A stretch of 64,000 nt of DNA from Rhizosphaericola mali (GCF_004337365.2 NZ_CP044016.1:3949507-4013506); one strand, 5' to 3'. Counted from the stretch's first letter, positions 9,609-60,751 are shown. A program made the numbers and translations. The notes: generated from the sequence alone by a model not told the origin.

Positions 9609-10508
9609 TTAGAACCAAACCTGCTCTTTCATCAAACCGCTGTTAGGTGCCGGTTTCTTTCGTCCATTCGTTTTCCTAATATTGTTTAAATAGTTCGTAA
9701 AAGGTTTTATCTCTTTTTTTTCTGTTATTTCTGTTCTTGACTTCTCAATTATTTTGTCAGGTGCGTCTATTTTATTTAAAAAAACATTTACACCTGTGAT
9801 TGTCTGCTTTCCTTTATACTGTGTCTTTCTGTAACTAAGTTTAAAATTATTGTCCGTAACTATTTTTAGTATATCTGACAGTAAATGTTGAAAGTCCTGT
9901 TGAGATGAAAAAGTTAAATCATCAACATATCTTGTGTATGTAATATTATTTTTGTTACAAAGATCAATAAGTAAAAAGTCTGTTTCTAGAAAAACTAAAT
10001 TGGCAATATGCGTGCTTGTCGGTGTTCCTTGGGGCAATTCATATTTCCAAGTTGTCAAGTTTGTCAACCAATGTGAGAAATGTGGCGAAAAATTCAGCTT
10101 GCGAAAAGTTTCATAAACTCTTTGTGATGTAATGTTTGGATAAAACTCTTGTAAGTCTGTAGTGAAAACATATTTTTTACCTTGGTGCGGTTTAGCATTA
10201 GTTATATTGCTACAACCTTTAACACCACCGTGAACAGTCTTAGGTAATTGAATAGGAATTAAAATTTTATTTTTTATTCTCGACTGAATTAATTTCAGCT
10301 CCTTTTGAGAAGGTCTAATAGTTCTTTGCTTTTCAGTTCCATCCAAATATTTTTTAGGTAGTCCTGTTTTTTTATCAATTTTCTTCTCTATCCACTCCTT
10401 GTAGTATTTTTCTAAATTATTTGCAATTTTTTCTACTTCGTCTGATTTAAAACATACGATTGCACAGAATTTTTTGAACTCATTTATTTTAAACTGCGAA
10501 GAATTCAT
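9609..10508 (-). CDS. Retron-type reverse transcriptase
   Basis: Reverse transcriptase of 299 residues. Motifs in order: NAKPH at 104-108 (the retron-specific NAxxH box), first catalytic Asp D118 (YVFTTDLQEFYPNI), LPQGTPTSTHIANLV at 158-172, the catalytic YVDD at 194-197 (YTRYVDDLTFSS), and ITGVNV at about 237-242, equivalent to the retron VTG box. There is no maturase or endonuclease domain, which argues against a group II intron, and no template/variable repeats suggesting a diversity-generating element. It should prime from a 2'-OH of the adjacent msr RNA (11149-11360) and make msDNA. Its start overlaps the Xre gene by 20 nt, implying translational coupling. The last 13 residues (APNSGL...) read into an attC-like sequence, so the original C-terminus may have been slightly different. 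Confidence 0.92.
   Translation of the reverse strand: MNSSQFKINEFKKFCAIVCFKSDEVEKIANNLEKYYKEWIEKKIDKKTGLPKKYLDGTEKQRTIRPSQKELKLIQSRIKNKILIPIQLPKTVHGGVKGCSNITNAKPHQGKKYVFTTDLQEFYPNITSQRVYETFRKLNFSPHFSHWLTNLTTWKYELPQGTPTSTHIANLVFLETDFLLIDLCNKNNITYTRYVDDLTFSSQQDFQHLLSDILKIVTDNNFKLSYRKTQYKGKQTITGVNVFLNKIDAPDKIIEKSRTEITEKKEIKPFTNYLNNIRKTNGRKKPAPNSGLMKEQVWF
9642..9650. repeat. attC-like end of the retron insert, 3' side
   Basis: Plus strand GTTAGGTGC; on the minus strand it reads GGCACCTAACAGCGGTTTG at the 3' end of the reverse transcriptase gene. CACCTAAC fits the integron attC R'' core RYYYAAC and is followed by an L''-like segment. It is the exact reverse complement of the 9 bp at 11544-11552 on the other side of the retron. 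The second half of a full attC (L'/R') is not visible here, so the site would be incomplete. No integrase gene is in the window. Confidence 0.45.
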
Positions 10509-28819: not shown

Positions 28820-30394
28820 TTATTTATAATTTTTGATAACTTTTATATTCCAAATCGAAATGGAAATGAAAAGTAAGAAACTGAAGATTACTAGATAATT
28901 AGACATAATTAGGGATGAGGGTAAAAAAGAATTAGGTGATATATCAACCATTATAGTCTTTGGCCCATCATTGTTTTCCATTACTTCTATTTCCCCTGTT
29001 GATTTGATAATACCACAGTAACCGTTATTGTTATTTACAACAACATCTTTTCTTGTCTCTACAGCTCGCATTCTATCATAATAAAAATGTTGACGCGACA
29101 AATAGGTCTGGGCAAACCAGCCATCATTCCCTGGATTTATGAGAAAATTAGCGCCTTCTTTAACAGAAGACCAAGATGGATCAGTTATTACAGATTCATT
29201 GCAGAGCATCATGCCAGCTTTTCCTACAGGCGTATTTAAAGGCTTATCGCTTACACCCTCTTTATATTGGATATTTCCATAGTAAAAAAAAGGCATTGTA
29301 ATTCCCAAAAATGGTTTTTCTGCAAGACTAAGCGCCACTCTTTTGTCATATCTTCCTAGTACTTTTTTTCCAGGAGCTATACTATATATGGAATTAAGGA
29401 GTACGTTTTTTGCATAAACCGTATTGACGCCAATGAGATTGGTCATACCTGAAGGGCTAGATAAACTATCTACAAAATTGATAAAATTATCGTCAGGATC
29501 ATAGGTCCAGGGAATAGCCGTTTCTGTCCAAATGCCTAATCGTGCTTGATTTTTTATTGCCACCTGTGTCAACGCAAATAATTGTTTAGCCACAAGATCT
29601 CCATTTGTGGAATTCCAACTTTCATCAGGTAATAAATTTTCACAAATAATAGCTGCTTTAAAACTGGAATCTTTTTTAGGATTATTGACAAGATTTTGTT
29701 GATAATTATTCAAAATTAATGCGCCCCACGCTAAATAAATCAGAATACATACAAAAGTGATCACTAACAATTTCCACTTTTTTACTTTTATAAATTCTGC
29801 TACTAAATAATTCAACATGGCCCCAAAAAATGTAATTATATATGGTCCAAATATAGACGCGGGTTGAATTGCATAAAGATTTGTTGATGCCGGGATATAA
29901 TTCAAATAAAGACAGGTCGCAAAACTACGACCAATATGTTCCATACTCCAATCTAACAAGACCCCGAAACAACCTCCAGCAATAGCAGCCCATATCCAAT
30001 AACTTTTGTAATGACGATTTTTAGGAAGTAAGTAGTAATAAACTAAACCTACAAGGCTCGTGTATAAACTAAAAAATATGGCGAACGCAATAATTAACCC
30101 TATACCAAATAAATAACCAGTTTTAGAATAATTGGCGACGCTGTTAATCAACCAATTAAAATTAATTACGGATGCTGTCACTCCAAAAATAACTGCTCTT
30201 GTCAAAATTTGCCTTTTCGTAGCATCAAGGCATAGATAAAAGATTGGAACTAAAATCAACCAATTAAAAGGTGTAGAAATCATTTGAATGCCAAATGTGA
30301 TTGGTATTGCGGCTAAGGCAGCGAGCCAATTCATTTTTCTGTTATGTTTTTTTGCAAATGCAACTTGGTCTATTTTGGGTAATTTTTTTTTCAA
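28820..30394 (-). CDS. lnt: Apolipoprotein N-acyltransferase
   Basis: Inner-membrane enzyme that adds the third acyl chain to lipoproteins. It has 524 residues: about six N-terminal transmembrane helices (to about 225), a nitrilase-like domain (about 240-490) and a final helix. The catalytic triad is visible as E291 (GIWTETAIPW), K351 (LGRYDKRVALSL) and C398 (GMMLCNESV). The usual RYDKxHLVPFGE is changed to RYDKRVALSLAEKPF, a shift seen in Bacteroidota Lnt. The window encodes lipoproteins that could be substrates, for example at 44644 and 57786. Confidence 0.9.
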   Translation of the reverse strand: MKKKLPKIDQVAFAKKHNRKMNWLAALAAIPITFGIQMISTPFNWLILVPIFYLCLDATKRQILTRAVIFGVTASVINFNWLINSVANYSKTGYLFGIGLIIAFAIFFSLYTSLVGLVYYYLLPKNRHYKSYWIWAAIAGGCFGVLLDWSMEHIGRSFATCLYLNYIPASTNLYAIQPASIFGPYIITFFGAMLNYLVAEFIKVKKWKLLVITFVCILIYLAWGALILNNYQQNLVNNPKKDSSFKAAIICENLLPDESWNSTNGDLVAKQLFALTQVAIKNQARLGIWTETAIPWTYDPDDNFINFVDSLSSPSGMTNLIGVNTVYAKNVLLNSIYSIAPGKKVLGRYDKRVALSLAEKPFLGITMPFFYYGNIQYKEGVSDKPLNTPVGKAGMMLCNESVITDPSWSSVKEGANFLINPGNDGWFAQTYLSRQHFYYDRMRAVETRKDVVVNNNNGYCGIIKSTGEIEVMENNDGPKTIMVDISPNSFLPSSLIMSNYLVIFSFLLFISISIWNIKVIKNYK

Positions 30395-30514: not shown

Positions 30515-31942
30515 TTATTTCTTTACGAATTTCTTAAATACCGGAACTCCAGCATTATTACTTGTTTTAATAACATAAATACCGGAACGAAGATTACTTG
30601 CATCAATAGGCATTAGTGATGCAGATACTTTACCAGATTTAACCAATTGTCCAGACATACTATAGATTGAATAATCAGCACCTACTAATGCATTATTTAA
30701 ATTTACACTAGTAATAACAGGGTTAGGAGCAACCATAACATCTGAACTAGTAGTACCTAAAAATAAACTTTGAATCGTACTATAATTCGAGGTGCCATCT
30801 AGATCCACTTGGTTCAATCTGTAATACACCGCACCTGTACCTGGCGTTGCATCAGTATAACTATAATTTAATATATTATTACTTGTACCGCCTGATGCAA
30901 AAGACCCTACAAATCCTAGGCTATTAAAGGTCTTACCGTCGTTACTTCTTTGAATATAAAAACCCTTGTTGTTTATCTCGGATGCAGTTTCCCAATTTAA
31001 TTGCACACTATTTCCTTCTTTCTTAGCAATAAATGAAGTCAACTTTATTGGTAATACAGATGCAGGAGTTAGAAACTGACCTTGTAAATACGGAGTTGCT
31101 GTTCCTGACAAATTATACCCTCCAGTTCCTGATGATGAATAGGTTCCACCTGTACCTGTAAATGGAACACTTAAATTAATTCTCACATCATAAAGTGTAT
31201 TTGCTTCCACACCTTTCAAAAATACAATACTTGCTTCCACTTCTGTTCCCAAATTCAGATACGTTTGAGAATTCATTGAAGTAGATGTTGTATATGATGA
31301 ATTAGTAACAAAACTCCCTTGGCTTATAACATTCACGTCTCCTATAGTATAACCCAAATCACCAACATTTGTGGATGAACTTTCTGTACTAAAAAATTTA
31401 CCCCCTAAGTAATAATATGGATTAGCTGGCCGTGTCCCTACCGCATTTGTTACTCCATACTTTGGCAAGACAATCATATTAGCAGTTTCGCTATTTCCAA
31501 TAATCGTTCTGTTGCTAATATAAGCAGAAGGAGCAACCCTCATTACTGCAGTATCGCTACTTGTGGTTGGAACTAATCGCCAATTTGTAGCAGTTGACTT
31601 TTTGTAATAAGTCGTAAACTGAATTGGGTTATTTAAGACGAAGGAATTTATGTATGCAGGTGTCAAACCTGATCCATATGTAACGGTCACTGCCATATTT
31701 ACGCCAATTCTTATTCTATACACCTTATCTTGAATTACATCAGGAATCAACGCTTGATTTAAACTAGTCAACCAAGAACCATCCCTAGCCCCTAAGGTAT
31801 TAACATCACTACTCCATCTATATGCTTGACCAGTAGTGGTTACAATCGGAGCATTAGGACTAGCGGAGAGAATATTAGTCAGAAATAAAAAAATCGCACT
31901 AGAACATACCAGCAATCTTAAAATGTGTAAATATTTTTTCAT
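30515..31942 (-). CDS. T9SS type A sorting domain surface protein
   Basis: Secreted protein of 475 residues. The signal peptide is the first 28 residues (ILRLLVCSSAIFLFLTNILSAS). Residues about 30-290 are beta-rich and rich in Thr/Ser/Gly, with a regular pattern (YRIRIGVNMAVTV... EASIVFLKGVEANTLYDVRINLSVPF) but no recognised enzyme motif. Residues about 300-395 hold the fibronectin-like domain LPIKLTSFIAKK...LNWETASEINNKGFYIQRS...YYRLNQVDLDG, nearly the same as in the cargo at 15998. The last 70 residues are the sorting domain (VMVAPNPVITSVNLNN ... YSIYSMSGQLV ... LRSGIYVIKTS ... FKKFVKK). Its role is unknown. A 294-bp spacer upstream shows no gene. Confidence 0.88.
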   Translation of the reverse strand: MKKYLHILRLLVCSSAIFLFLTNILSASPNAPIVTTTGQAYRWSSDVNTLGARDGSWLTSLNQALIPDVIQDKVYRIRIGVNMAVTVTYGSGLTPAYINSFVLNNPIQFTTYYKKSTATNWRLVPTTSSDTAVMRVAPSAYISNRTIIGNSETANMIVLPKYGVTNAVGTRPANPYYYLGGKFFSTESSSTNVGDLGYTIGDVNVISQGSFVTNSSYTTSTSMNSQTYLNLGTEVEASIVFLKGVEANTLYDVRINLSVPFTGTGGTYSSSGTGGYNLSGTATPYLQGQFLTPASVLPIKLTSFIAKKEGNSVQLNWETASEINNKGFYIQRSNDGKTFNSLGFVGSFASGGTSNNILNYSYTDATPGTGAVYYRLNQVDLDGTSNYSTIQSLFLGTTSSDVMVAPNPVITSVNLNNALVGADYSIYSMSGQLVKSGKVSASLMPIDASNLRSGIYVIKTSNNAGVPVFKKFVKK

Positions 31943-32236: not shown

Positions 32237-32770
32237 ATGAATCTAGATAGACAAATTACAACCACAGATATCTTATCCTATTTCCCCATACAACCACCAT
32301 TTAGATTTATCAATACTATTGATGAAGTGAATGCCCAGCAGATTATTGGATCATATACATTTTCAGAAGATGAATACTTTTTTAAAGGACATTTTCCTAA
32401 TAATCCAATTGTCCCAGGATCTATATTGCAAGAGTCTGCTGCCCAGATAGGGCTTGTTGCTTTTGGTATGTATTTGTTAGGTAATCGTATTGATTCTTTA
32501 TTTGACATAGACAATACACAACTGCCCAATGAATTAGCTATTGTCCCAGGAATTGTTATAGAGAATTATGTTATACGTTTTTATTTAACCTCTTCCGAAC
32601 TAAAATTTAAGAAAATTGTACAGCCTAGTGATACTATTCATGTACATGCAGAAAAGATATTTTTTCGTTTGAATAAATTAAAGTGCGGTATCGAAATTAA
32701 AAATGAAGCTGATCAAATAATTTGTAAAGGTATAATGTCCGGAATGGTACATGTTTCGATTTTAAAGTAA
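32237..32770 (+). CDS. FabZ-like 3-hydroxyacyl-ACP dehydratase
   Basis: Hot-dog fold dehydratase of 177 residues acting on acyl carrier protein-bound 3-hydroxyacyl chains. The catalytic His is H52 in KGHFPNNPIVPG and the acidic partner is E66 in LQESAAQIG. The N-terminus DILSYFPIQPPFRFINTIDEV matches FabZ (LPHRyPfLlvDrv). It starts a three-gene run with two ketosynthase genes, with 9 bp to the next gene. The chromosome would be expected to have another housekeeping FabZ. This one is probably specific to the secondary pathway encoded here. Confidence 0.85.
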   Translation: MNLDRQITTTDILSYFPIQPPFRFINTIDEVNAQQIIGSYTFSEDEYFFKGHFPNNPIVPGSILQESAAQIGLVAFGMYLLGNRIDSLFDIDNTQLPNELAIVPGIVIENYVIRFYLTSSELKFKKIVQPSDTIHVHAEKIFFRLNKLKCGIEIKNEADQIICKGIMSGMVHVSILK

Positions 32771-32779
32771 GAATGACAT

Positions 32780-34090
32780 ATGCAAGATAGACGAGTCGTT
32801 ATAACAGGGATTGGAGTTGTGGCACCAAACGGAGTCAATAAATCTTTATTTTTAGATGCATTAAAAAAGGGCAAAACAAATTTTAAGAAAATATCAAACG
32901 CTTCCAAGTTAGGATTAGGATGTGAATATGCAGCAATACCAGAACTTTCACAAGAGGCAATAGATAATTTTTGCAAAAAATATAGATTAGTAAAAATACG
33001 AAGTAGCGCAGTAATTTATGGATGTATGGCAGGAATGGAAGCTTGGTTGGACGCGGGATTAGAAGTATCTGAAAAAAGTACCGGAGAGCCGCTTTGGAAC
33101 GCTGGCTGTATTTTTAATTCTAGCTGTGGAGGAGTAGAAGCATTTGCATACAATTATAAATTGGCAAAAGCTGGTGATTTCAAAAAAATGGGAGGCCGAG
33201 TAGCGCAGCAAGCGATGAATAGTGGCATTAGCGCATATATGGGAGGTATATTAGGATTGGGAAATCAAGTCACAACGTATGCATCAGAATCTAATTCTGG
33301 TACTGAATCTATTATCAACGCTTACAATCGTATCAAATGGGGTTTAGGCGAGATTATGCTTGCAGGTAGTACAGAAAGCAGCAGTGAGTATGTTTTTGGA
33401 CTATATGATACTACACAACGTGAGGATAACTCGCATACAACGATTGAGACAAAAAATCTTACTTCCGAGGAAATCGCCATGCATTGTTTTGAAGAAAATG
33501 CACCTGGAGGAATTTATGGGGCAGGAGCTGGAGCATTGGTTTTAGAAAGCTTAGAATCTGCAATCAATAGAGGTGCAAAAATATATGCAGAAATATTAGG
33601 AACAAATCTTAATTCTGGTGGCCAAAGAAACGATAAGGGATTACTTGGCTTAGATGAACATAGCTTGGAATACTGTATTAAAAATACTATTAAAAAGGCA
33701 AAAATAAATCCTGCTATAATCGATTTAGTTGCAGGATCCTATCCATCAGATGACTATTGCCAAAAGATTGAGTTTGCTGCAACCCGAAAAGCATTACAAC
33801 TAACCAATAAATCATTACCTTATTTTAATACAACCAAGTCTTTGATTGGAGCATGCTTAGCAGCTTCTGGAGCAATCGAAGCAGTTGCTGCGATTTTGGA
33901 GTTGAATAATAATTTTATTCATGGTACTCCGAGGATTGGAGATATAAGTTTGGATATTTTGACTCATCTATCAGCATCTAAAATTCCTTCCAAAATGATA
34001 AGAAAAAAGGATTTATCAACAATCTTACATGTAAATTATGGGGTCGGTGACGTATATTCAAGTTATATTTTGAAAAAATGGAAAGCCTAA
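32780..34090 (+). CDS. Ketosynthase homologue lacking the catalytic triad (chain-length-factor-like)
   Basis: Thiolase-fold protein of 436 residues, clearly a FabF-type ketosynthase by RVVITGIGVVAPNG, GAGAGALVLES and LNSGGQRNDKG. All three active-site positions are lost compared with the next gene: Cys becomes S171 (ASESNSGTES versus SSACSTGTEG), the first His becomes S320 (AGSYPSDD versus SGHLTSTIGD) and the second His becomes A358 (SLIGACLAASG versus SMIGHSLSASG). This is the pattern of a chain-length factor (KS-beta) that forms a heterodimer with an active ketosynthase in type II polyketide and aryl-polyene pathways. It lies 10 bp before the active enzyme (34101), as KS-alpha/CLF pairs usually do. 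Confidence 0.85.
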   Translation: MQDRRVVITGIGVVAPNGVNKSLFLDALKKGKTNFKKISNASKLGLGCEYAAIPELSQEAIDNFCKKYRLVKIRSSAVIYGCMAGMEAWLDAGLEVSEKSTGEPLWNAGCIFNSSCGGVEAFAYNYKLAKAGDFKKMGGRVAQQAMNSGISAYMGGILGLGNQVTTYASESNSGTESIINAYNRIKWGLGEIMLAGSTESSSEYVFGLYDTTQREDNSHTTIETKNLTSEEIAMHCFEENAPGGIYGAGAGALVLESLESAINRGAKIYAEILGTNLNSGGQRNDKGLLGLDEHSLEYCIKNTIKKAKINPAIIDLVAGSYPSDDYCQKIEFAATRKALQLTNKSLPYFNTTKSLIGACLAASGAIEAVAAILELNNNFIHGTPRIGDISLDILTHLSASKIPSKMIRKKDLSTILHVNYGVGDVYSSYILKKWKA

Positions 34091-34100
34091 TCTATTGGAA

Positions 34101-35387
34101 ATGAAACAACGAGTTGTTATAACAGGTATGGGTGTCGTCAGTCCAAATGGTATTGGATTGAAAGCATTTGCGAAATCACTAAAAATCGGTAAATCGGGCA
34201 TTAAGAAAATTAAGGAAATGCGAGACTTGAATTTACGATGCCAAGTCGCAGGGGTTCCTCCCATTTCTCAAAAAAAAATACAAGCTTTTTTATCTAAATA
34301 TAATCTAAGAGACATAATAAGTACTGGTGTTATTTATGGTTGCATGTCTGCCGTTGAAGCTTGGCTAGATGCTGGATTAGAAATTAGTGATAAGGCCTTA
34401 GACAGATCAACAGGATGTATATTCGGAACAGGCAGTAACGGTGCCGAAGCAACTCAATTAGCCATTGATCTATATGATGCGGGAAAAGGTGTCAAAAAAA
34501 CGCCCAAAAATATTTTCATGCAATCAATTGCAAGTTGTGTGAGTATTTATATAAATGGAATATTCGGTTTAGGAAATCATGTAACCACTAATTCCTCCGC
34601 ATGCTCAACGGGAACGGAAGGCATTTTGGAGGGCTACTATAGAATCGTGCACGGTGAAGCAGAAAGAATGATTATCGGCAGTTCTGAAAGTGCAGGAACA
34701 TTTGTATGGACTCCATTTGACGCTATGTTTGCAACAGCCCAAGATCATAATCACCATCCCAAAGAAGCATCCTGTCCTTTAAATCAAAATGCAAGTGGTT
34801 TTGTGCCTGGTGCAGGCGGAGGAGCATTAATTTTAGAAAGTTTAGCATCAGCCCAAAAACGGGGCGCAAAAATTTATGCAGAAATTTTAGGGGGACACAT
34901 TAATTCAGGTGGACAGAGAAGAGACGGTTCAATGACTATTGGTAACTCTGAAGGCATGATAAGGTGTATTGAAAATGCTGTGAAAAATTGTAAAATAAAA
35001 GTGAAAGATTTAGATTTAATTTCTGGTCATCTAACTTCCACCATAGGAGATATAGTAGAAATGCAATGTTGGGATTATGTATTCAAAAGGCATAAAATAT
35101 CTTTTGAAAAAAGACCCTATATTAATGCCACAAAATCAATGATTGGTCACTCTTTGAGCGCATCTGGATCGATAGAATCTATTGCAGCAATACTCCAAAT
35201 GAATCAAAATTTTGTTCATCCTAGCATTAATGCTTATCCATTACATGAAAATATTGAAGGAATATTTCCTCATGAAAAAATTCCAAAAACAGTAATCGAA
35301 AACATTAATTTAAATACAATCGCAAAAATAAGCTTTGGGTTTGGGGATGTCAATGCCTGTGTAATTTTTCAAAAATATAAAAGCTAA
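34101..35387 (+). CDS. Beta-ketoacyl-ACP synthase (active partner)
   Basis: FabF-type condensing enzyme of 428 residues. The catalytic Cys168 is in NSSACSTGTEG. H310 (ISGHLTSTIGD) and H350 (SMIGHSLSASG) complete the Cys-His-His triad, and GFVPGAGGGALILES is conserved. The ATG at 34101 is preferred over a TTG at 34095. Sequence blocks are shared with the preceding degenerate homologue, so the pair arose by duplication and would form a KS/CLF heterodimer. The likely role is iterative elongation on the carrier protein encoded at 35430, with dehydration by the FabZ-like protein and enoyl reduction by FabI at 36136. The end product is unknown. Confidence 0.88.
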   Translation: MKQRVVITGMGVVSPNGIGLKAFAKSLKIGKSGIKKIKEMRDLNLRCQVAGVPPISQKKIQAFLSKYNLRDIISTGVIYGCMSAVEAWLDAGLEISDKALDRSTGCIFGTGSNGAEATQLAIDLYDAGKGVKKTPKNIFMQSIASCVSIYINGIFGLGNHVTTNSSACSTGTEGILEGYYRIVHGEAERMIIGSSESAGTFVWTPFDAMFATAQDHNHHPKEASCPLNQNASGFVPGAGGGALILESLASAQKRGAKIYAEILGGHINSGGQRRDGSMTIGNSEGMIRCIENAVKNCKIKVKDLDLISGHLTSTIGDIVEMQCWDYVFKRHKISFEKRPYINATKSMIGHSLSASGSIESIAAILQMNQNFVHPSINAYPLHENIEGIFPHEKIPKTVIENINLNTIAKISFGFGDVNACVIFQKYKS

Positions 35388-35418
35388 AAAATCCATAGTT
35401 TTTTACTATGGATTTTTG
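35386..35418. terminator. Bidirectional terminator between ketosynthase and carrier-protein genes
   Basis: AAAAATCCATAGT and ACTATGGATTTTT pair over 13 bp across a short T loop, directly between the two convergent genes. A- and T-runs at the ends suit both directions. Confidence 0.8.
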
Positions 35419-35429
35419 CAAACACCCTC

Positions 35430-36125
35430 TTACTTAACTTTCTTTTTAGGAGAAGCATTTATTGAGATTGTTGTTTTCGCTACTTTGGGTGATTTTTTTT
35501 CACTTTTGCTAATCTTCTGGCTTTTTATGGAAACAGTCTCAGTTTTAACAGCTACAACTGTCGCATTTTTTTTTGTTTTTGGAGATTTTTTAGCGGTTGA
35601 GATCTTTGTTGTTACATTTTTATTGGCAATTTTAGATTGTATCAATAAGTACATTTCGTCAAAATTGACAATTTTCTTAACTTCCTCATCTTCGATTTTA
35701 ATGCCAAATTTTTCTTCAGTATCTACAATAATCTCTACAAAATCGACAGAATCGATATTCAATCTTTCAATAAAATTGCTTTCCATCTTTGCATCAATCT
35801 CTCCCAATTTCTCTTGATTACCACTATATTTTACATTGATTTCATCCAGAATTTCTGGATGTTCTGTATACTTAGCAATAATTTGCTTCAACTCATTTAA
35901 CAAAATTTCATCGTATATAATTGTAGCCTCCCCTTCTTTACGTTGAAGACCTTTACTCTTTGCTACTAATACCTTTGTGAAATCTGAAGTTTTGTTATCT
36001 ATTTTTTTGAGTGTAGATTTTTTATCATTCTTTTCTTTTTGGTTCATAGGAATTGTGTTAGTGGTTTCTTTCTTGTCCAAATCAATAGACGTTTTCTCTA
36101 ATTTTTCATTTTTTTTTAACGCCAT
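35430..36125 (-). CDS. Acyl carrier protein with long lysine-rich tails
   Basis: Carrier protein of 231 residues, three times the usual size. The ACP core is about 75-168, with the phosphopantetheine Ser126 in LNIDSVDFVEIIVDTEEKFGIKIEDEEVKKI. The region before the Ser is longer than in FabD-type ACPs (about 35 extra residues). Residues 1-65 and 169-231 are highly charged, low-complexity Lys/Ser/Thr sequence, for example AKKSPKTKKNATVVAVK and SEKKSPKVAKTT, similar to histone-H1-like repeats. These tails could bind nucleic acid, membranes or an acidic partner. It sits 10 bp downstream of fabI in the same transcript. The function of the tails is unknown and unusual for an ACP. Confidence 0.8.
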   Translation of the reverse strand: MALKKNEKLEKTSIDLDKKETTNTIPMNQKEKNDKKSTLKKIDNKTSDFTKVLVAKSKGLQRKEGEATIIYDEILLNELKQIIAKYTEHPEILDEINVKYSGNQEKLGEIDAKMESNFIERLNIDSVDFVEIIVDTEEKFGIKIEDEEVKKIVNFDEMYLLIQSKIANKNVTTKISTAKKSPKTKKNATVVAVKTETVSIKSQKISKSEKKSPKVAKTTISINASPKKKVK

Positions 36126-36135
36126 ATTTTAATAC

Positions 36136-36948
36136 TTATTCATTAAATGTACTAATCACTTTATCTGTCAGCCCAGTAGAACTAAAGCCTCCATCATGAT
36201 AGATGTTTTGCATAGTGATATAACGAGTATAATCACTAAACATTGTGACACAAAATGATGCTAGGTCTTTGCTTGATGCATTTCCTAAGGGGCTCATCTG
36301 ATCTGAATAGTTCCAAAAATCATCAAATCCAGCTATTGCACCTCCCGCCGTTGTCTTAACAGGCGACTGGGATATTGTATTGATTCTCACTTTATTTTTC
36401 GCTGCATAATGTAAACCAAAGCTTCTAGAAATACCTTCCAATAAGGATTTCGCATCTGCCATTTCTGAATATTGTGGAAAGATCCTTTTAGAGGCAATAT
36501 AGGTCAATGCGACAACACTACCCCAATCTGCAATCGCATTTTTTTGAAAACAAACTTGCAACAATTTATGGAAGCTAACAGCTGAAACGTCTAATGTTTT
36601 AAGCATATACTCATAATTCAGTTCCGTATAATCATGCTTTTTACGGATATTATTACTCATCGCCACACTATGCAAAACAAAATCAAATGGTCCTTTGAAA
36701 TATTTCACCGCTTTATCAACAAGTAACTCCAAATCTTCGATTTTAGTAACATCAGCTCCAATAACTGGAACTTTAATTTCTTTAGCCAATGATTTTACCT
36801 CTCCAAATCTTACTGCTAATGGTGCATTTGAAATAATTATTTTTGCACCTTCTTGCTTACATTTTTTTGCAACTTCCCAAGCTATTGAATTTTCATTCAA
36901 GACTCCAAGAATAATACCTTTTTTACCTTTTAGTATTTTTGAACTCAT
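36136..36948 (-). CDS. fabI: Enoyl-[acyl-carrier-protein] reductase
   Basis: NADH-dependent reductase of the short-chain dehydrogenase fold that completes each elongation cycle. It has 270 residues. The FabI catalytic pair is Y-x6-K in PQYSEMADAKSLLE, following WGSVVALTYIASKRIFPQYS. NADH-binding GVLNENSIAWEVAKKC and SQSPVKTTAGGAIAGF are typical of Bacteroidota FabI. It is co-transcribed with the tailed ACP and faces the dehydratase/ketosynthase genes. An enoyl reductase here suggests that the cluster makes at least partly saturated chains, not a full aryl polyene. It could be the housekeeping enzyme or a pathway-specific copy; this window cannot tell. Confidence 0.9.
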   Translation of the reverse strand: MSSKILKGKKGIILGVLNENSIAWEVAKKCKQEGAKIIISNAPLAVRFGEVKSLAKEIKVPVIGADVTKIEDLELLVDKAVKYFKGPFDFVLHSVAMSNNIRKKHDYTELNYEYMLKTLDVSAVSFHKLLQVCFQKNAIADWGSVVALTYIASKRIFPQYSEMADAKSLLEGISRSFGLHYAAKNKVRINTISQSPVKTTAGGAIAGFDDFWNYSDQMSPLGNASSKDLASFCVTMFSDYTRYITMQNIYHDGGFSSTGLTDKVISTFNE

Positions 36949-42792: not shown

Positions 42793-42832
42793 AAACAATA
42801 AAGCCGATCCAATTGGATCGGCTTTATTGTTT
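42793..42832. terminator. Perfect 40-bp palindromic terminator shared by serS and hipT
   Basis: A perfect 20-bp stem (AAACAATAAAGCCGATCCAA and its complement) with no loop at its centre (42812/42813), 15 bp after serS. The hipT-like stop codon (42824-42826) and its last codons lie within the right arm, so the same element terminates both converging transcripts. Confidence 0.88.
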
Positions 42833-43840
42833 ACTATTCTTTAATGACAAACTCAATCGCTTCAATTTTTCTTTATATAGTCCTATATATATCTCTTTTA
42901 GCGATTCTGATAAAAAACTTAGTTGCGTTAAAAAAATGACTTCTTCTACATGCGACAAAAAATTATCCATAATTTTTTTAACTCTTAAAGGCAATAACCC
43001 AATCTTAATACCGAAATCATAAAAATCATCATAAGCATGAAATCCAAAATAAGCAAAACTTGGATGATCGAAATCTCCATCATACAATCTATCCTCCAAC
43101 GCAAAATCTCCATCCTCTATATGTAATCTTGTACAAATTAGATCGTATGCTGGAGCAAGCTGGTATAGCCCATTCTGTTCATAATCCACAACAGAGTAGT
43201 TTTTAAGATGCGCATCCCCGTTACTAAATAAATAGTTAAATACAACTAACTTAAATAAATTTTCCTTGGCAATCAATGCCGCAGGTAAAAATTTGTCAAT
43301 CGTCTCTGCCATTTGCAAATAGCTTCCGTCGTATTTAAAATTTTTATTACCATCATCACTAGTTTTTAACATCAAACTCGCAAAGTCTTCCTTTAAACAA
43401 CGCACACCATCAGCAACAACATCAAATCGCTTCGTAATATATGCGGGAGCTTCGTCCGGGAAAAAGATTAAAGCATTTTGTGCAGTCTCTATCTTATATA
43501 TTTGAGATGCAATCTGCATAGTTAAATGTTCATTTGCTGGAACAAACTCTACATTATCCAGCTCGGTTGGCATAGGCTTCAATATATATTGCCCATTCTC
43601 TTGCGTAACAGTTAAAATATTCTTTTCTAATCGGAGAGAATATTTTTCTTGAACTCCCGATATCGAAATTCGAGCTCTATCCTTTATTGATAATTTCCTT
43701 TGTTCTCCATTACTTTCATTTTGAGCAAAAGGTAATATATGCGAGACTTTACGACCATTGAACAAATGGCGCAATGCTGTTGTGCTATAAGTATCGTGTC
43801 CAGGACGTAATGTCGCAGGACATACTGAAATAATTTCCAT
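42824..43840 (-). CDS. hipT: HipT-like Ser/Thr kinase toxin (HipA C-terminal type)
   Basis: HipA-family kinase of 338 residues that lacks the N-subdomain 1, which is encoded separately at 43851. It starts with CPATLRPGHDTYSTTALRHLF. The Gly-rich loop is RISISGVQEK, with serines S59 and S61 forming the SxS autophosphorylation motif reported for E. coli HipT. The catalytic D209 and N214 are in SNGDAHLKNYSV. The metal-binding D233 is in LAPAYDLICT. All kinase residues are present, so an active toxin is expected. In HipT the known target is tryptophanyl-tRNA synthetase; the target here is unknown. It lies 10 bp after the HipS-like gene. Confidence 0.88.
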   Translation of the reverse strand: MEIISVCPATLRPGHDTYSTTALRHLFNGRKVSHILPFAQNESNGEQRKLSIKDRARISISGVQEKYSLRLEKNILTVTQENGQYILKPMPTELDNVEFVPANEHLTMQIASQIYKIETAQNALIFFPDEAPAYITKRFDVVADGVRCLKEDFASLMLKTSDDGNKNFKYDGSYLQMAETIDKFLPAALIAKENLFKLVVFNYLFSNGDAHLKNYSVVDYEQNGLYQLAPAYDLICTRLHIEDGDFALEDRLYDGDFDHPSFAYFGFHAYDDFYDFGIKIGLLPLRVKKIMDNFLSHVEEVIFLTQLSFLSESLKEIYIGLYKEKLKRLSLSLKNSKQ

Positions 43841-43850
43841 AACGTGTAAT

Positions 43851-44174
43851 TTAAACTTCTTCTACCCTAATTGCACCAATCGATTCTGTAGATGCTGTTT
43901 TAATCAGAAAAGTGAAATGATCATTCTCATCGATTTTTAGAATTCGACTCTGTGCAAGTTTATTTCTCCCTTCACTTAACATATTGAAAAAAAACGGAAA
44001 TAGTACAGGAGAAAAATAAACCCTTGTATTCTTTGGTAAGGTTAAACTAATAGCGGAATAATTTTCACTAGTAAAATAAACATCGTCATACTCAAACTTA
44101 AAACTTCCATCATCCAATTGAGTTATGAGTCCTACATATATTTGATTATTAAAAACTTTTCCCTGTCTCATCAC
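43851..44174 (-). CDS. HipS-like protein (HipA N-subdomain 1, split off)
   Basis: Protein of 107 residues equal to the N-terminal subdomain of HipA: GKVFNNQIYVGLITQLDDGSFKFEYDD, ISLTLPKNTRVYFSPVLFPFFFNMLSEGRNKL and STESIGAIRVEEV. In the HipBST system the separate HipS protein neutralises HipT. The start at 44174 overlaps the HipB-like gene by 26 nt, so the two are translationally coupled. The next ATG is one codon in. The 10-bp gap to the kinase implies balanced expression of the pair. Confidence 0.85.
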   Translation of the reverse strand: MMRQGKVFNNQIYVGLITQLDDGSFKFEYDDVYFTSENYSAISLTLPKNTRVYFSPVLFPFFFNMLSEGRNKLAQSRILKIDENDHFTFLIKTASTESIGAIRVEEV

Positions 44175-44385
44175 TCATTCTTTTTCCTTGCAATGATAAT
44201 TCCAAACCAAGTATGCCGGCTACAAGTATCCAATTGGAAATTGAAACACCTGATTTGCCTTTTTCAATCGCTTGAATGGTTTTATTACTTAATCCAGTCA
44301 ATTCAGCCATATCCTTTTGCGTATATTTCAATTGCTCCCTACGCTTAACAATACGACTACCTAAATAAATTAAATTAGATGTCAT
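44149..44385 (-). CDS. hipB: HipB-like antitoxin, Xre-family DNA-binding protein
   Basis: Xre HTH protein of 78 residues: IVKRREQLKYTQKDMAELTGLSNKTIQAIEKGKSGVSISNWILVAGILGLELSL is a typical HipB helix-turn-helix. It is the first gene of the operon and should repress it by binding upstream operators. Direct repeats of ATTATTCTA at 44397-44405 and 44409-44417 are the best candidates. In HipBST-type systems HipB is the DNA-binding autoregulator while HipS is the main antitoxin. Confidence 0.85.
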   Translation of the reverse strand: MTSNLIYLGSRIVKRREQLKYTQKDMAELTGLSNKTIQAIEKGKSGVSISNWILVAGILGLELSLQGKRMSDETGKSF

Positions 44386-50744: not shown

Positions 50745-51947
50745 ATGCCAGATTTTGATCATCAATCCTTTTTCAAAGCCATATATGACTTACCCGAGGA
50801 ACAATTAATAACGTATTTAGAAGAAAATAAATCTGCCATTCCTGCGGATAAAAAAGAGCAATTGATCTCTACAATTATGCAAAATAAGAAGTGGGAGACA
50901 TTTGACTATTGTGTTAAAGAAGATTTGATACACACGGACTTATTCGAATATGATAGTTTGAATAATGGAGAATTGAATTCCATTTTAATGGGAACGAAAT
51001 ATTTATCCGAAAATGATTTGAATAATTTTCTGCCACATTTCTCCGCATATTTAGATGAAGTAGACGATATCAATGAAGAAATTGAAAGCAAAAATTTATT
51101 ATCGTTTGCGATACAAGAGGGTTTGCCTGTCGCTATATTTCAAGCACTAATAGACGCTGGTATTCAGACAAATTATTTGACAAAAGCAGAAGAAAACTAT
51201 TTGCATTCCATATGTCGTCAAAGACAAAATTCAAATATCGACTATAATAAAAATGCAATACAACTATTTATAGATAGTGGTGTAGATATCAACAAAATAG
51301 ATATCGAAGGCAAAACTCCATTGAGAAATGCATTGGAAAACTATAATTTATCTAAACCAGAAATCATTCAACTATTATTGGAAAATGGAGCGGATGTTAA
51401 TCAAGAAGATAAAAAAGGAATTACACCCATATTCGTAGCTGCAGTTTATCAGCAAAAATTGGATTTGGTTAAATCTCTATTGGAATATGGCACGCCAGAT
51501 TTTGACAAGAAAAATTTGGAAGGCGAAAATTTAGTAAATGCTTTTTTAAGATCCATTAGCAATAGCCCCAATTCTATAGAAATTTTGGATGCATTTATTC
51601 AAAATGGCGCTAACCTTACTGCGACGTCTGCCTATTATCAAAAAGAAAAATCTGGTATTGATTGGATCGCTGAGAAATCATCAGAAATATTGAAGCATTT
51701 ATTGGATAATGGTTCCATTGATGTAAATAATACGGACAACGATGGACAGACTATACTATTTAAAGTTTGTCAAGTTGAACCTAACTATGACGAGGCTGTT
51801 GCAAAAGATTTGTACAGAAAAGTAAAATATTTATTGAAAGCAGGCGCGGAGCCAAGTATTGAAGATCGATTTGATAAAAAAGCGGTAGACTATGCTATGA
51901 GCGACAACTTGAAAGCAAAAATTGTAGAAACCCTTTTAGAAAAATAA
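50745..51947 (+). CDS. Ankyrin-repeat protein
   Basis: Cytoplasmic protein of 400 residues. Ankyrin repeats are visible from about 115 to 395, for example TPLRNALENYNLSKPEIIQLLLENGADVNQEDKKGITPIFVAAVYQQKLDLVKSLLEYGTPDFD and the last YLLKAGAEPSIEDRFDKKAVDYAM. The first 110 residues are acidic and helical with no repeat. There is no signal peptide. It probably scaffolds a partner protein. It starts 8 bp before the second ankyrin gene, so the two form one operon. Confidence 0.82.
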   Translation: MPDFDHQSFFKAIYDLPEEQLITYLEENKSAIPADKKEQLISTIMQNKKWETFDYCVKEDLIHTDLFEYDSLNNGELNSILMGTKYLSENDLNNFLPHFSAYLDEVDDINEEIESKNLLSFAIQEGLPVAIFQALIDAGIQTNYLTKAEENYLHSICRQRQNSNIDYNKNAIQLFIDSGVDINKIDIEGKTPLRNALENYNLSKPEIIQLLLENGADVNQEDKKGITPIFVAAVYQQKLDLVKSLLEYGTPDFDKKNLEGENLVNAFLRSISNSPNSIEILDAFIQNGANLTATSAYYQKEKSGIDWIAEKSSEILKHLLDNGSIDVNNTDNDGQTILFKVCQVEPNYDEAVAKDLYRKVKYLLKAGAEPSIEDRFDKKAVDYAMSDNLKAKIVETLLEK

Positions 51948-51954
51948 TAAGAAC

Positions 51955-53286
51955 ATGTCACAATCATTTATAGTTGCCTGTGAAGGCGGCAAAAGAAAAA
52001 TAGCAGAAATACTACTTGAAAATAAACAAGTAGATGTAAAATATACGGATGAAAAAGGAAGAACCGCTTTGCATTATGCGGCATATCAAGGTTATAATGA
52101 AATTGTAAAATCCTTAATCGACAATGGCGCTGAGATCAATTATGAAGATCATAATGGAGAAACGCCTTTGTTTTTTGCTATTATTAATAAACAAAAGCAA
52201 ACTGCATTGTTGCTTATAGACCAAGGTGCTAATGTACATATCAACGATTTTCAAGGAAACACCTTATTGCATGTAGTTGCTCAAACAGGGCAACAAGATC
52301 TTGCTGATAAATTGATCCAAGCAGGATTGGACGTTAATGCACTCAATCAAGCTTCTGTTTCGACCTTGTTAATTGCAGTTCAATATAAATTTCTTCCAGT
52401 AGTAAAGATTTTGTTGTTGAATGGCGCAGATAGTAACTATACAGATAAAAATGGAAATACGCCTCTGAATCTAGCGATTGAGAACAATTCTATTCCTATA
52501 GTGAATCTGTTATTAGACAATGGTGCAACAGTCAACTTATTAAACGATTTGAATGAAGGACCATTACTATTAGCAGCAAAATCAGGTAATAGAATTATTT
52601 GTGAAAAGTTAATTGAACAAGGAGCAGATATTTTTACAGAATCGAAAGAAGGTATTTCGCCTGTTTGGTACGCAGTTGGAGCCAATTTGAAAGAATTAGT
52701 TGCCTTATTTTTAGATAAAGGTTTGTCTCCCGACTATGCACGTAGTGTAGATGCATGGGACGGAAAAGATGGAAATTATTTACAAAAATTAATTGCCAAT
52801 ACAGGTACGAGAACTTTCATTCTGGGTTTTGAACCTCATTATGCAGGAGAGACTTTATTGGAAACAGCATCTAAATTTGGCTATCTTTCTTTAGTTAAAT
52901 TATTACTTGATAAGGGTGCTGATATCAACAAACAAGATGCATCTGGTAATACTGCACTTCATTATGCAGCCGCTTATGGCAAAAAAGATATTGTACGATT
53001 TTTATTGACCAATGGAGCGAAAACAGATGAAGCAAATGTATTGGAACAAAAAGCGATTGACTATTCCAATATGAAAGGCTATAATGAAATTACAGCCTTA
53101 TTAATAGAGTTTGGTGCAAAGACAAATGCCATCGATGATGGTACTAAAGCAGCTCCTGTACAACCAACTATAAAAAATATGGAGGATAAAAAGAAAGCTC
53201 TATTTGACATAAAGGAGTTGTTGGATGCAGGTATTCTAACACAAGAAGAATTTGACAGCCAAAAGCAAAAAATTTTAGCTAGTTAA
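51955..53286 (+). CDS. Ankyrin-repeat protein with C-terminal SHOCT-like domain
   Basis: Protein of 443 residues built from about ten ankyrin repeats (GRTALHYAAYQGYNEIVKSLIDNGAEINYEDHNGETPLFFAII through GNTALHYAAAYGKKDIVRFLLTNGAKTDE). After a short linker the last 30 residues, KKALFDIKELLDAGILTQEEFDSQKQKILA, match the short SHOCT helical hairpin often found at the ends of bacterial proteins. Residues about 262-310 (DAWDGKDGNYLQKLIANTGTRTFILGFEPHYAGE) interrupt the repeats. It follows the first ankyrin gene by 8 bp and ends at a terminator. Confidence 0.82.
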   Translation: MSQSFIVACEGGKRKIAEILLENKQVDVKYTDEKGRTALHYAAYQGYNEIVKSLIDNGAEINYEDHNGETPLFFAIINKQKQTALLLIDQGANVHINDFQGNTLLHVVAQTGQQDLADKLIQAGLDVNALNQASVSTLLIAVQYKFLPVVKILLLNGADSNYTDKNGNTPLNLAIENNSIPIVNLLLDNGATVNLLNDLNEGPLLLAAKSGNRIICEKLIEQGADIFTESKEGISPVWYAVGANLKELVALFLDKGLSPDYARSVDAWDGKDGNYLQKLIANTGTRTFILGFEPHYAGETLLETASKFGYLSLVKLLLDKGADINKQDASGNTALHYAAAYGKKDIVRFLLTNGAKTDEANVLEQKAIDYSNMKGYNEITALLIEFGAKTNAIDDGTKAAPVQPTIKNMEDKKKALFDIKELLDAGILTQEEFDSQKQKILAS

Positions 53287-59245: not shown

Positions 59246-60751
59246 ATGAAAAAAATACTTCTGTCTGCGTTACTCCTTGCAGCATTGCATAGCCAAGCGC
59301 AAAATAAAAATACCTTGCTTGACCAAGATTTTTGGAAAGCAACACCTTCCATTTCAACTGTTAAAGATGCTATTTCCAAAGGAGCAAGTCCAAGTGAAAT
59401 GAATCCAATGGCGTTTGATGCGGTCGTATTAGCCATCATGAATGATGCGCCAATCGAAACTATTAAATATTTAACCGAACAAAAAGGCAATTCCGTAGAA
59501 AAATTAACGCACGATGGTAGAACTTATCTATTTTGGGCAGCCATGAAAGGAAATGTCCCAGCAATGCAATACTTTATCCAAAAAGGAGCGAATGTAAATA
59601 CAGAAGATAGTCATGCGATGACAGCCTTATCTTTTGCGGCGGCTGGTGGTGTTAAAAATACTGACGTATATGAAACCCTTATAAAAGCAGGAGCAGACAT
59701 CAAAAAGAAATACCAAAAAGGAGCTTCTTTACTTTTGGTTTCTGTGGGCAACGATAGTCCCGATTTGACATTAAGTAATTATCTAGTATCCAAAGGTTTT
59801 TCCTTAAAAGATAAAGATGCAGACGGTAATACTGCATTTGACTATGCGGCTCGTGTGGGCAATATTGATTTATTGAAAAAATTAAAAGAAAAAGGAGTTT
59901 TTCCTACTGCAAATGCAATGATATTTGCTAGTCAAGGTACACGTAGAAGTGCCAGTACTTTGGACGTATATCAATATATTACCAGCGTAGGTATTCCAGC
60001 AAGCGCGGTAAACAAAAGTGGAGAAAATGCCTTGGATGCGCTCGTACGTAAACCTAAACAAGAAGAAATTATCTCTTGGTTTATTCAAAATGGAGCGAAT
60101 CCCAATCAGGTAGATAACTCCGGCAATACGCCTTTTTATTATGCAAGTAGTAGTCGCGATACCTCCGTATTGGCAATGCTTTTACCCAAATTAAAAAATA
60201 TCAATCTTGCCAATAAAGAAGGAGAGACGCCACTTATGAATGCGGTGCAAAATGGAAATACGCAAGTGGTCAATTATTTACTCGAACATGGAGCCAATCC
60301 AGAAGCCAAAGATGCAAAGGGAAATAATTTGGCTTATTATCTTATCCAATCCTATAGAGGAAAAAATGCAGGTCGCGGTATGGGACGTGGCGGAGATAAT
60401 GGCAAGGATTTCAAAGAAAAATTAGCGCTATTGCAGTCTAAAGGCGTTCAATTAAATGCTTTACAAAACGGCAGCAATACATTGTATCATCTTGCCATTG
60501 CCAAAAATGAAGTCGATTTACTTAAAGAAATTTCCAATTTGAATATTGATCTGAATGCTAAAAATAGTGACGGTTTGACCGCATTGCAGAGAGCCGCGAT
60601 GATCTCTAAAAATGACCAAGTTTTGAAATATTTAATTGAAGCAGGCGCTCAAAAAGATGTCAAAACGGATATGGATGAGACGGCTTACGATTTGGCAAAG
60701 GAAAATGAATATTTAACTAAAAATAATATTTCTATAGATTTTCTAAAATAA
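59246..60751 (+). CDS. Exported ankyrin-repeat protein
   Basis: Protein of 501 residues with a signal peptide (MKKILLSALLLAALHSQAQ), so the repeats are periplasmic or surface-exposed, unlike the two at 50.7 kb. About twelve ankyrin units run from about 30 to 490, for example GRTYLFWAAMKGNVPAMQYFIQKGANVNTEDSHAMTALSFAAAGG and GETPLMNAVQNGNTQVVNYLLEHGANPEAKDAKGNN. A Gly/Arg-rich insert lies near 370-390 (RGKNAGRGMGRGGDNGKD). It sits between the DUF4374 and DUF2271 genes and precedes the latter by 4 bp, so it belongs to the iron locus. Confidence 0.82.
   Translation: MKKILLSALLLAALHSQAQNKNTLLDQDFWKATPSISTVKDAISKGASPSEMNPMAFDAVVLAIMNDAPIETIKYLTEQKGNSVEKLTHDGRTYLFWAAMKGNVPAMQYFIQKGANVNTEDSHAMTALSFAAAGGVKNTDVYETLIKAGADIKKKYQKGASLLLVSVGNDSPDLTLSNYLVSKGFSLKDKDADGNTAFDYAARVGNIDLLKKLKEKGVFPTANAMIFASQGTRRSASTLDVYQYITSVGIPASAVNKSGENALDALVRKPKQEEIISWFIQNGANPNQVDNSGNTPFYYASSSRDTSVLAMLLPKLKNINLANKEGETPLMNAVQNGNTQVVNYLLEHGANPEAKDAKGNNLAYYLIQSYRGKNAGRGMGRGGDNGKDFKEKLALLQSKGVQLNALQNGSNTLYHLAIAKNEVDLLKEISNLNIDLNAKNSDGLTALQRAAMISKNDQVLKYLIEAGAQKDVKTDMDETAYDLAKENEYLTKNNISIDFLK

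Follow-up and report, generated by a model that had tools for sequence, protein, structure and literature searches.

The locus analysed here raises the question of why Rhizosphaericola mali keeps a ketosynthase (KS) that has lost its Cys, His and His residues beside an intact one, and what the two proteins may make together. In the window, i.e. the whole stretch of 64,000 nucleotides that was analysed, the pair had been described from the sequence alone as part of a five-gene type II synthase cluster showing the KS-beta/KS-alpha arrangement of polyketide and aryl-polyene pathways.

Organisation of the locus

All five ORFs were found where the sequence-only reading had placed them and were assigned by Pfam and NCBIfam as it had claimed. 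The features of the locus, including two further genes, are the following:

28820-30394, minus strand: Lnt-type membrane N-acyltransferase homologue with Glu, Lys and Cys residues (TIGR00546, 154 bits, cut-off 132.9; LNT_N and CN_hydrolase domains)
30515-31942, minus strand: secreted protein with a signal peptide and a T9SS type A sorting domain (TIGR04183, E=8e-11; PF18962)
32237-32770, plus strand: FabZ-like 3-hydroxyacyl-ACP dehydratase (FabA domain, E=1e-10, Pfam; FabZ, E=2e-16, NCBIfam)
32780-34090, plus strand: KSβ, ketosynthase homologue without Cys/His/His (ketoacyl synthase in Pfam and NCBIfam; alignment; β clade)
34095-35387, plus strand: KSα, ketosynthase with an intact triad (TTG start, ATG at 34101; alignment; α clade)
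35387-35417, minus strand: predicted palindromic hairpin resembling a terminator, located where the KSα and ACP genes converge (consensus scan)
35430-36125, minus strand: ACP with Lys-rich N-terminal and C-terminal extensions, pI 9.4 (PP-binding, E=2.5e-4)
36136-36948, minus strand: FabI-type enoyl-ACP reductase with Y-x6-K (Pfam, NCBIfam)

The window cluster contains KS, dehydratase, enoyl reductase and ACP with their catalytic residues, i.e. the set of an accessory type II FAS. The FabZ His/Glu spacing is kept in the dehydratase, and the catalytic His and Glu are present in all five clusters with a KS pair; the catalytic residues of FabI are intact, and the ACP, whose NIDSVDFVEIIVD core and tails were compared with those of other ACPs, retains the Ser of the DSV motif. 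No ligase, ammonia-lyase, ketoreductase or thioesterase was recognised among the window ORFs between 24 and 46 kb. The T9SS and Lnt genes lie beyond the dehydratase and are transcribed away from the FAS genes; a second predicted terminator-like hairpin, also from the consensus scan, separates them. The hydrophobic N-terminus of the T9SS protein was read from the sequence. AlphaFold gave a mean pLDDT of 29 for KSβ (three-row alignment) and 35 for the T9SS protein alone.

Three other parts of the window were recorded. A retron-type reverse transcriptase (9609-10508, minus strand) had RT_VI as its best PADLOC match (E=3e-76); the neighbouring stretch of about 1 kb lacks any long ORF and could house an msr-msd RNA; there was no Rfam match. 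A split HipA-like locus (42824-44385, minus strand) encodes an HTH protein, the HipA N-terminal domain alone (107 aa) and the HipA C-terminal domain (338 aa) in separate genes, and resembles the tripartite HipBST toxin-antitoxin arrangement. Three ankyrin-repeat-like proteins are encoded at 50745-53286 and 59246-60751, in the neighbourhood of genes for a TonB-type receptor and a PepSY/flavodoxin reductase-like protein.

Distribution and origin of the ketosynthase pair

This kind of KS was found in 30 of 396 genomes of the family, only five of which carry the adjacent pair: the window genome and G001 (same genus), G212 and G332 (a second genus) and G250 (a third). What recurs elsewhere is more than the five genes originally listed, since the four other pairs also have the Lnt and T9SS-type genes beside them and two have FabG in addition. 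Among 395 genomes of the class, 32 encode this kind of KS and the window genome alone has the adjacent pair. A scan of genome contigs added one single-KS relative, from a Flavobacteriaceae-labelled MAG, and no relative of KSα was found on the viral contigs scanned.

In a tree of 55 KSs, the α clade (100/98) and the β clade (96/82) are sisters joined at 100/100 and are nested within a Bacteroidota single-KS family; the pair therefore arose by local duplication. Flexirubin-type KSs, including very divergent triad-less partners from related genomes, branch elsewhere. Descent of KSβ from a chain-length-factor (CLF) lineage was rejected in this tree, from which actinobacterial CLF sequences are absent, as β is sister to α and lies outside the flexirubin-type KSs and their triad-less partners. 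The claim of a KS-beta/KS-alpha arrangement consequently stands insofar as a dead/active pair exists in an accessory type II synthase, but not as to its CLF ancestry. The β copies have evolved about twice as fast as the α copies (end branches 1.36 and 1.16 vs 0.66 and 0.57), and the full-length β frames of four genomes share 40-46% identity. The cluster proteins as a whole are only 38-66% identical between genera, and the gene order varies, the active copy being first in G250 and the β copy in the other four.

KSα and KSβ have their closest relatives in the Bacteroidota single-KS clusters, which likewise encode a FabZ-like dehydratase and an ACP. These clusters differ in having one KS, an acidic ACP of 84-85 residues, a PPTase and no Lnt or T9SS gene nearby. 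Those examined have the order SDR-DH-KS-ACP-PPTase, several with type III PKS, FAD oxidoreductase and methyltransferase genes, and the domain content of one such locus was confirmed by domain search. In five loci (L027, L028, L060, L061 and L062), a type III PKS-like gene and an FAD oxidoreductase gene, mostly together with a methyltransferase gene, are joined to the SDR-DH-KS-ACP-PPTase set. In two genomes a single-KS cluster lies near what looks like a flexirubin-type one (L063 with L213, L064 with L214), the latter containing an ammonia-lyase-like gene and triad-less KS homologues.

Loss of the catalytic residues in KSβ

The replacements Ser171, Ser320 and Ala358 had been placed correctly: in an alignment of 20 KS proteins these residues of KSβ align with Cys, His and His of KSα. 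The KSα triad is Cys170, His312 and His352 when counted from the TTG start and, as first reported, Cys168, His310 and His350 from the ATG at 34101. A phmmer comparison with solved KASs aligned the loop of the first His differently and still saw neither Cys nor His at the triad places of KSβ. Since no His occurs anywhere in residues 300-360 of KSβ, its first His is lost regardless of the alignment. The nearest solved structures for both KSs are of the FabF/FabB type.

The β triad is intact (C-H-H) in the two genomes of one genus, G212 and G332, and dead in the other three (S-S-A in the window, G-S-H in G001 and H-S-T in G250). One subunit without the Cys beside one with an intact triad, as in a KS-CLF pair, is accordingly found in the window, G250 and G001, and not in G212 and G332. 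The three dead copies group in one clade (96/89), in all of them the first His has become Ser, and the residue before the lost nucleophile is acidic (Glu, Glu and Asp), whereas it is Ala or Ser in the active KSs. The simplest history would be one catalytic loss in the ancestor of the dead copies, followed by drift. Glutamine is the usual replacement of Cys in CLFs; the Cys position of the dead β copies is occupied by Ser, Gly or His, never by Gln. This also differs from the signature of KSQ-type decarboxylases (Cys to Gln with both His kept), the first His being gone in all three. Four of the five genomes have an open β reading frame; the fifth, G332, has a single frameshift that is possibly a sequencing error because it lies within a G-run of a one-contig assembly.

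ACP, reductases and PlsC-like acyltransferases

Each of the five cluster ACPs carries a Lys-rich N-terminal extension (74-165 residues, 20-28% Lys), and their pI is 9.3-9.5 in four and 6.8 in G250. The three ACPs of single-KS clusters that were compared have 84-85 residues and a pI of 4.2-4.4. A tethering function of the tails, to the membrane or to a partner, would be a guess.

The cluster FabIs separate from housekeeping FabIs with modest support (73). A search of the window genome found no second FabI, and no FabK match exceeded the cut-off, so the cluster FabI may also serve the housekeeping pathway there. The absence of a ketoreductase noted in the sequence-only reading holds for the window and also for the surroundings of the G001 and G250 genes, but the clusters of G212 and G332 end in FabG. 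A gene for a PlsC-like acyltransferase occurs in two pair clusters (G212 and G250); in G250 the distance from the pair to this gene, FabI and ACP is about 8 kb.

The neighbouring Lnt homologue and surface protein

The conserved unit is larger than five genes: the five named at first all belong to it, but so do the Lnt homologue and the T9SS-sorted protein. An Lnt gene and a gene for a T9SS-tailed or [WY]RWR protein adjoin the KS pair in all five genomes, and this arrangement was found beside the KS in none of ten single-KS loci examined. The linkage does not represent five independent events, because the five genomes belong to only three genera. G212 and G332 have every cluster gene on the same strand, with FabI, ACP and FabG at the end, and the orientation of the Lnt and T9SS genes relative to the FAS genes differs between the window and G001.

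The catalytic residues of E. coli Lnt are E267, K335 and C387, and the phospholipid enters the enzyme sn-1 chain first according to the structure paper (PMC5500888). Like this apolipoprotein N-acyltransferase, the window homologue has a membrane domain (LNT_N) and a nitrilase domain with Glu, Lys and Cys; these residues are kept in all cluster Lnts, which form one clade (100/100). Unlike the canonical enzymes, the cluster Lnts group with other Lnts apart from two guaB-linked ones and stand beside T9SS-type proteins without a lipobox. A further full-length Lnt is encoded elsewhere in G212, G332 and G250, so the cluster Lnt is an extra copy in these three genomes. In the window genome and in G001 (81% complete), it is the only copy over the cut-off, and the sole full Lnt of the window genome could also have a housekeeping role.

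The window protein has the two marks of T9SS type A cargo, a signal peptide and a C-terminal sorting domain. Its score against the [WY]RWR family profile, named after a motif found soon after the signal peptide, was 0.014, and that of the G001 protein 9e-7. As the two proteins are homologous over their length (E=2e-46), the window protein appears to be a divergent member of the [WY]RWR family, placed there only via G001. The proteins of G212 and G332 match the profile weakly (2e-3 and 2e-5). G250 has two proteins, one matching at 1e-28 without a recognisable sorting tail and the other with a tail. At 25 further loci of this Lnt group (L176-L200), the Lnt gene is directly beside a [WY]RWR secreted protein in 19, beside another T9SS-tailed protein in two and beside neither in four; the recurrent pair of the 19 loci has no FAS genes within the short stretches covered.

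A classical Lnt substrate is not evident, because the T9SS proteins have no lipobox. The Q-rule of Bacteroidetes (PMC5837995) was checked for the [WY]RWR proteins; a first heuristic gave no Q at +1 in 22 and a looser one an allowed Q site in 5 of 24, and the controls were poor. A breach of the rule that would leave a free N-terminal amine is only a lead. A search of the open-licence literature turned up no previous description of this KS pair or of an association of Lnt with T9SS proteins.

Possible function of the cluster

Our tentative explanation, which may fall just short of an even chance, is that the cluster encodes an accessory type II FAS that works with the Lnt-type acyltransferase and the T9SS-sorted surface protein, and that the dead KSβ is paired with KSα. 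KSα would perform the condensation, and KSβ, a duplicate of KSα whose catalytic residues were lost in this lineage, would most likely be its heterodimer partner and set chain length, substrate choice or stability. The ketoreductase, encoded by the cluster in the sister genus and probably acting in trans in the window genome, would complete the cycle together with the FabZ-like dehydratase and FabI. Because the dehydratase and FabI are intact and FabG is present in two sister clusters, the likeliest outcome is a full reductive cycle and a saturated product; the acyl chain would be carried by the basic-tailed ACP. The PlsC-like enzyme of the sister clusters could move this chain to phospholipid, from which the Lnt homologue might pass it to an amine beyond the inner membrane; the N-terminus of the linked surface protein is a possible acceptor. 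The gene content, the duplication, the catalytic loss and the linkage are observed; we infer the heterodimer, the product, and the transfer by Lnt and its substrate from gene content and linkage. Several points count against the proposal. PlsC enzymes load the sn-2 position, whereas phospholipid enters Lnt with the sn-1 chain first, and the window's Lnt and T9SS genes diverge from the FAS genes, with the predicted hairpin separating Lnt from T9SS. The lack of a lipobox in the T9SS proteins and the possible housekeeping use of the genome's only FabI and only full Lnt also speak against it.

The product had been predicted not to be a standard aryl polyene, with which the presence of FabI and the lack of ligase, ammonia-lyase, thioesterase and ketoreductase genes nearby agree. 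The suggestion of a specialised fatty chain for the envelope was borne out in that FabI fits a saturated or partly reduced chain and the Lnt and PlsC-like neighbours fit an envelope destination; for a signalling molecule, the other possibility raised, no evidence was found.

It is possible, though rather unlikely, that the FAS makes a special chain for ordinary envelope lipids and that it settled beside an older Lnt-surface protein pair, which would then be a neighbour by descent only. The abundance of that pair without FAS genes (19 of 25 loci), its differing orientation in the window and G001, and the PlsC-like genes of two clusters are in line with this. However, the neighbourhood is kept in all five genomes and three genera despite the low identity between genera, and the genes of G212 and G332 all share one strand.

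Two further explanations concern KSβ itself, and both are improbable. It might have acquired a new catalytic role in the old pocket, e.g. hydrolysis or decarboxylation, as the acidic residue before the lost nucleophile in all three dead copies could suggest; yet the nucleophile position varies among Ser, Gly and His, so no nucleophile is conserved, and the window and G250 copies have lost both His residues on which KSQ-type malonyl decarboxylation depends. With as little likelihood, KSβ is a decaying pseudogene and KSα a homodimer. Its twofold faster evolution, the triad residues that still drift and the one frameshifted copy would agree with decay, but open full-length frames in four genomes at 40-46% identity and the shared change of the first His to Ser point to long retention after the loss.

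It is very improbable that the two KSs are a genuine KS/CLF pair from an aryl-polyene or type II polyketide pathway, since the resemblance in a dead/active KS pair with dehydratase and ACP is outweighed by the separate position in the KS tree, the missing ligase, ammonia-lyase, thioesterase and ketoreductase genes and the presence of FabI. Descent from the flexirubin-type lineage is refuted by the tree, but KSβ may nevertheless work like a CLF. ApeC serves as chain length factor to ApeO, with which it forms a heterocomplex (PMC8253772), and several KSs are encoded in flexirubin clusters (PMC3992019). Like these, the window cluster is a type II system with dehydratase and ACP in which an active KS is accompanied by a triad-less homologue. 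Polyenes built from an aromatic starter are the products of aryl-polyene and flexirubin clusters, which contain ketoreductase and ligase genes (PMC8253772; PMC3992019), whereas the window cluster has FabI, no ketoreductase and no ligase, and its KSs occupy separate branches. The chemistry of KS, FabZ, FabI and ACP is that of E. coli FabF/FabB and the housekeeping type II FAS, from which the cluster differs by the duplicated KS with a dead copy, the separate FabI group and the basic-tailed ACP.

Returning to the accessory FAS acting with Lnt, a bolder and doubtful extension is that this Lnt subfamily N-acylates T9SS-secreted [WY]RWR surface proteins rather than lipoproteins, and that in five genomes a dedicated FAS with a duplicated, partly dead KS supplies the chain. 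If true, this would be an undescribed way of lipidating secreted proteins.

The dead/active KS pair of R. mali arose by local duplication and not from the flexirubin-type chain-length-factor lineage, and the step from active duplicate to pseudoenzyme is directly testable because sister genomes keep the β triad. With a separate FAS encoded next to a secreted surface protein and a membrane acyltransferase, the locus suggests production of a special fatty chain destined for the envelope. Should the linkage be functional, it would point to an undescribed use of an Lnt-type enzyme on T9SS surface proteins, fed by a private FAS.
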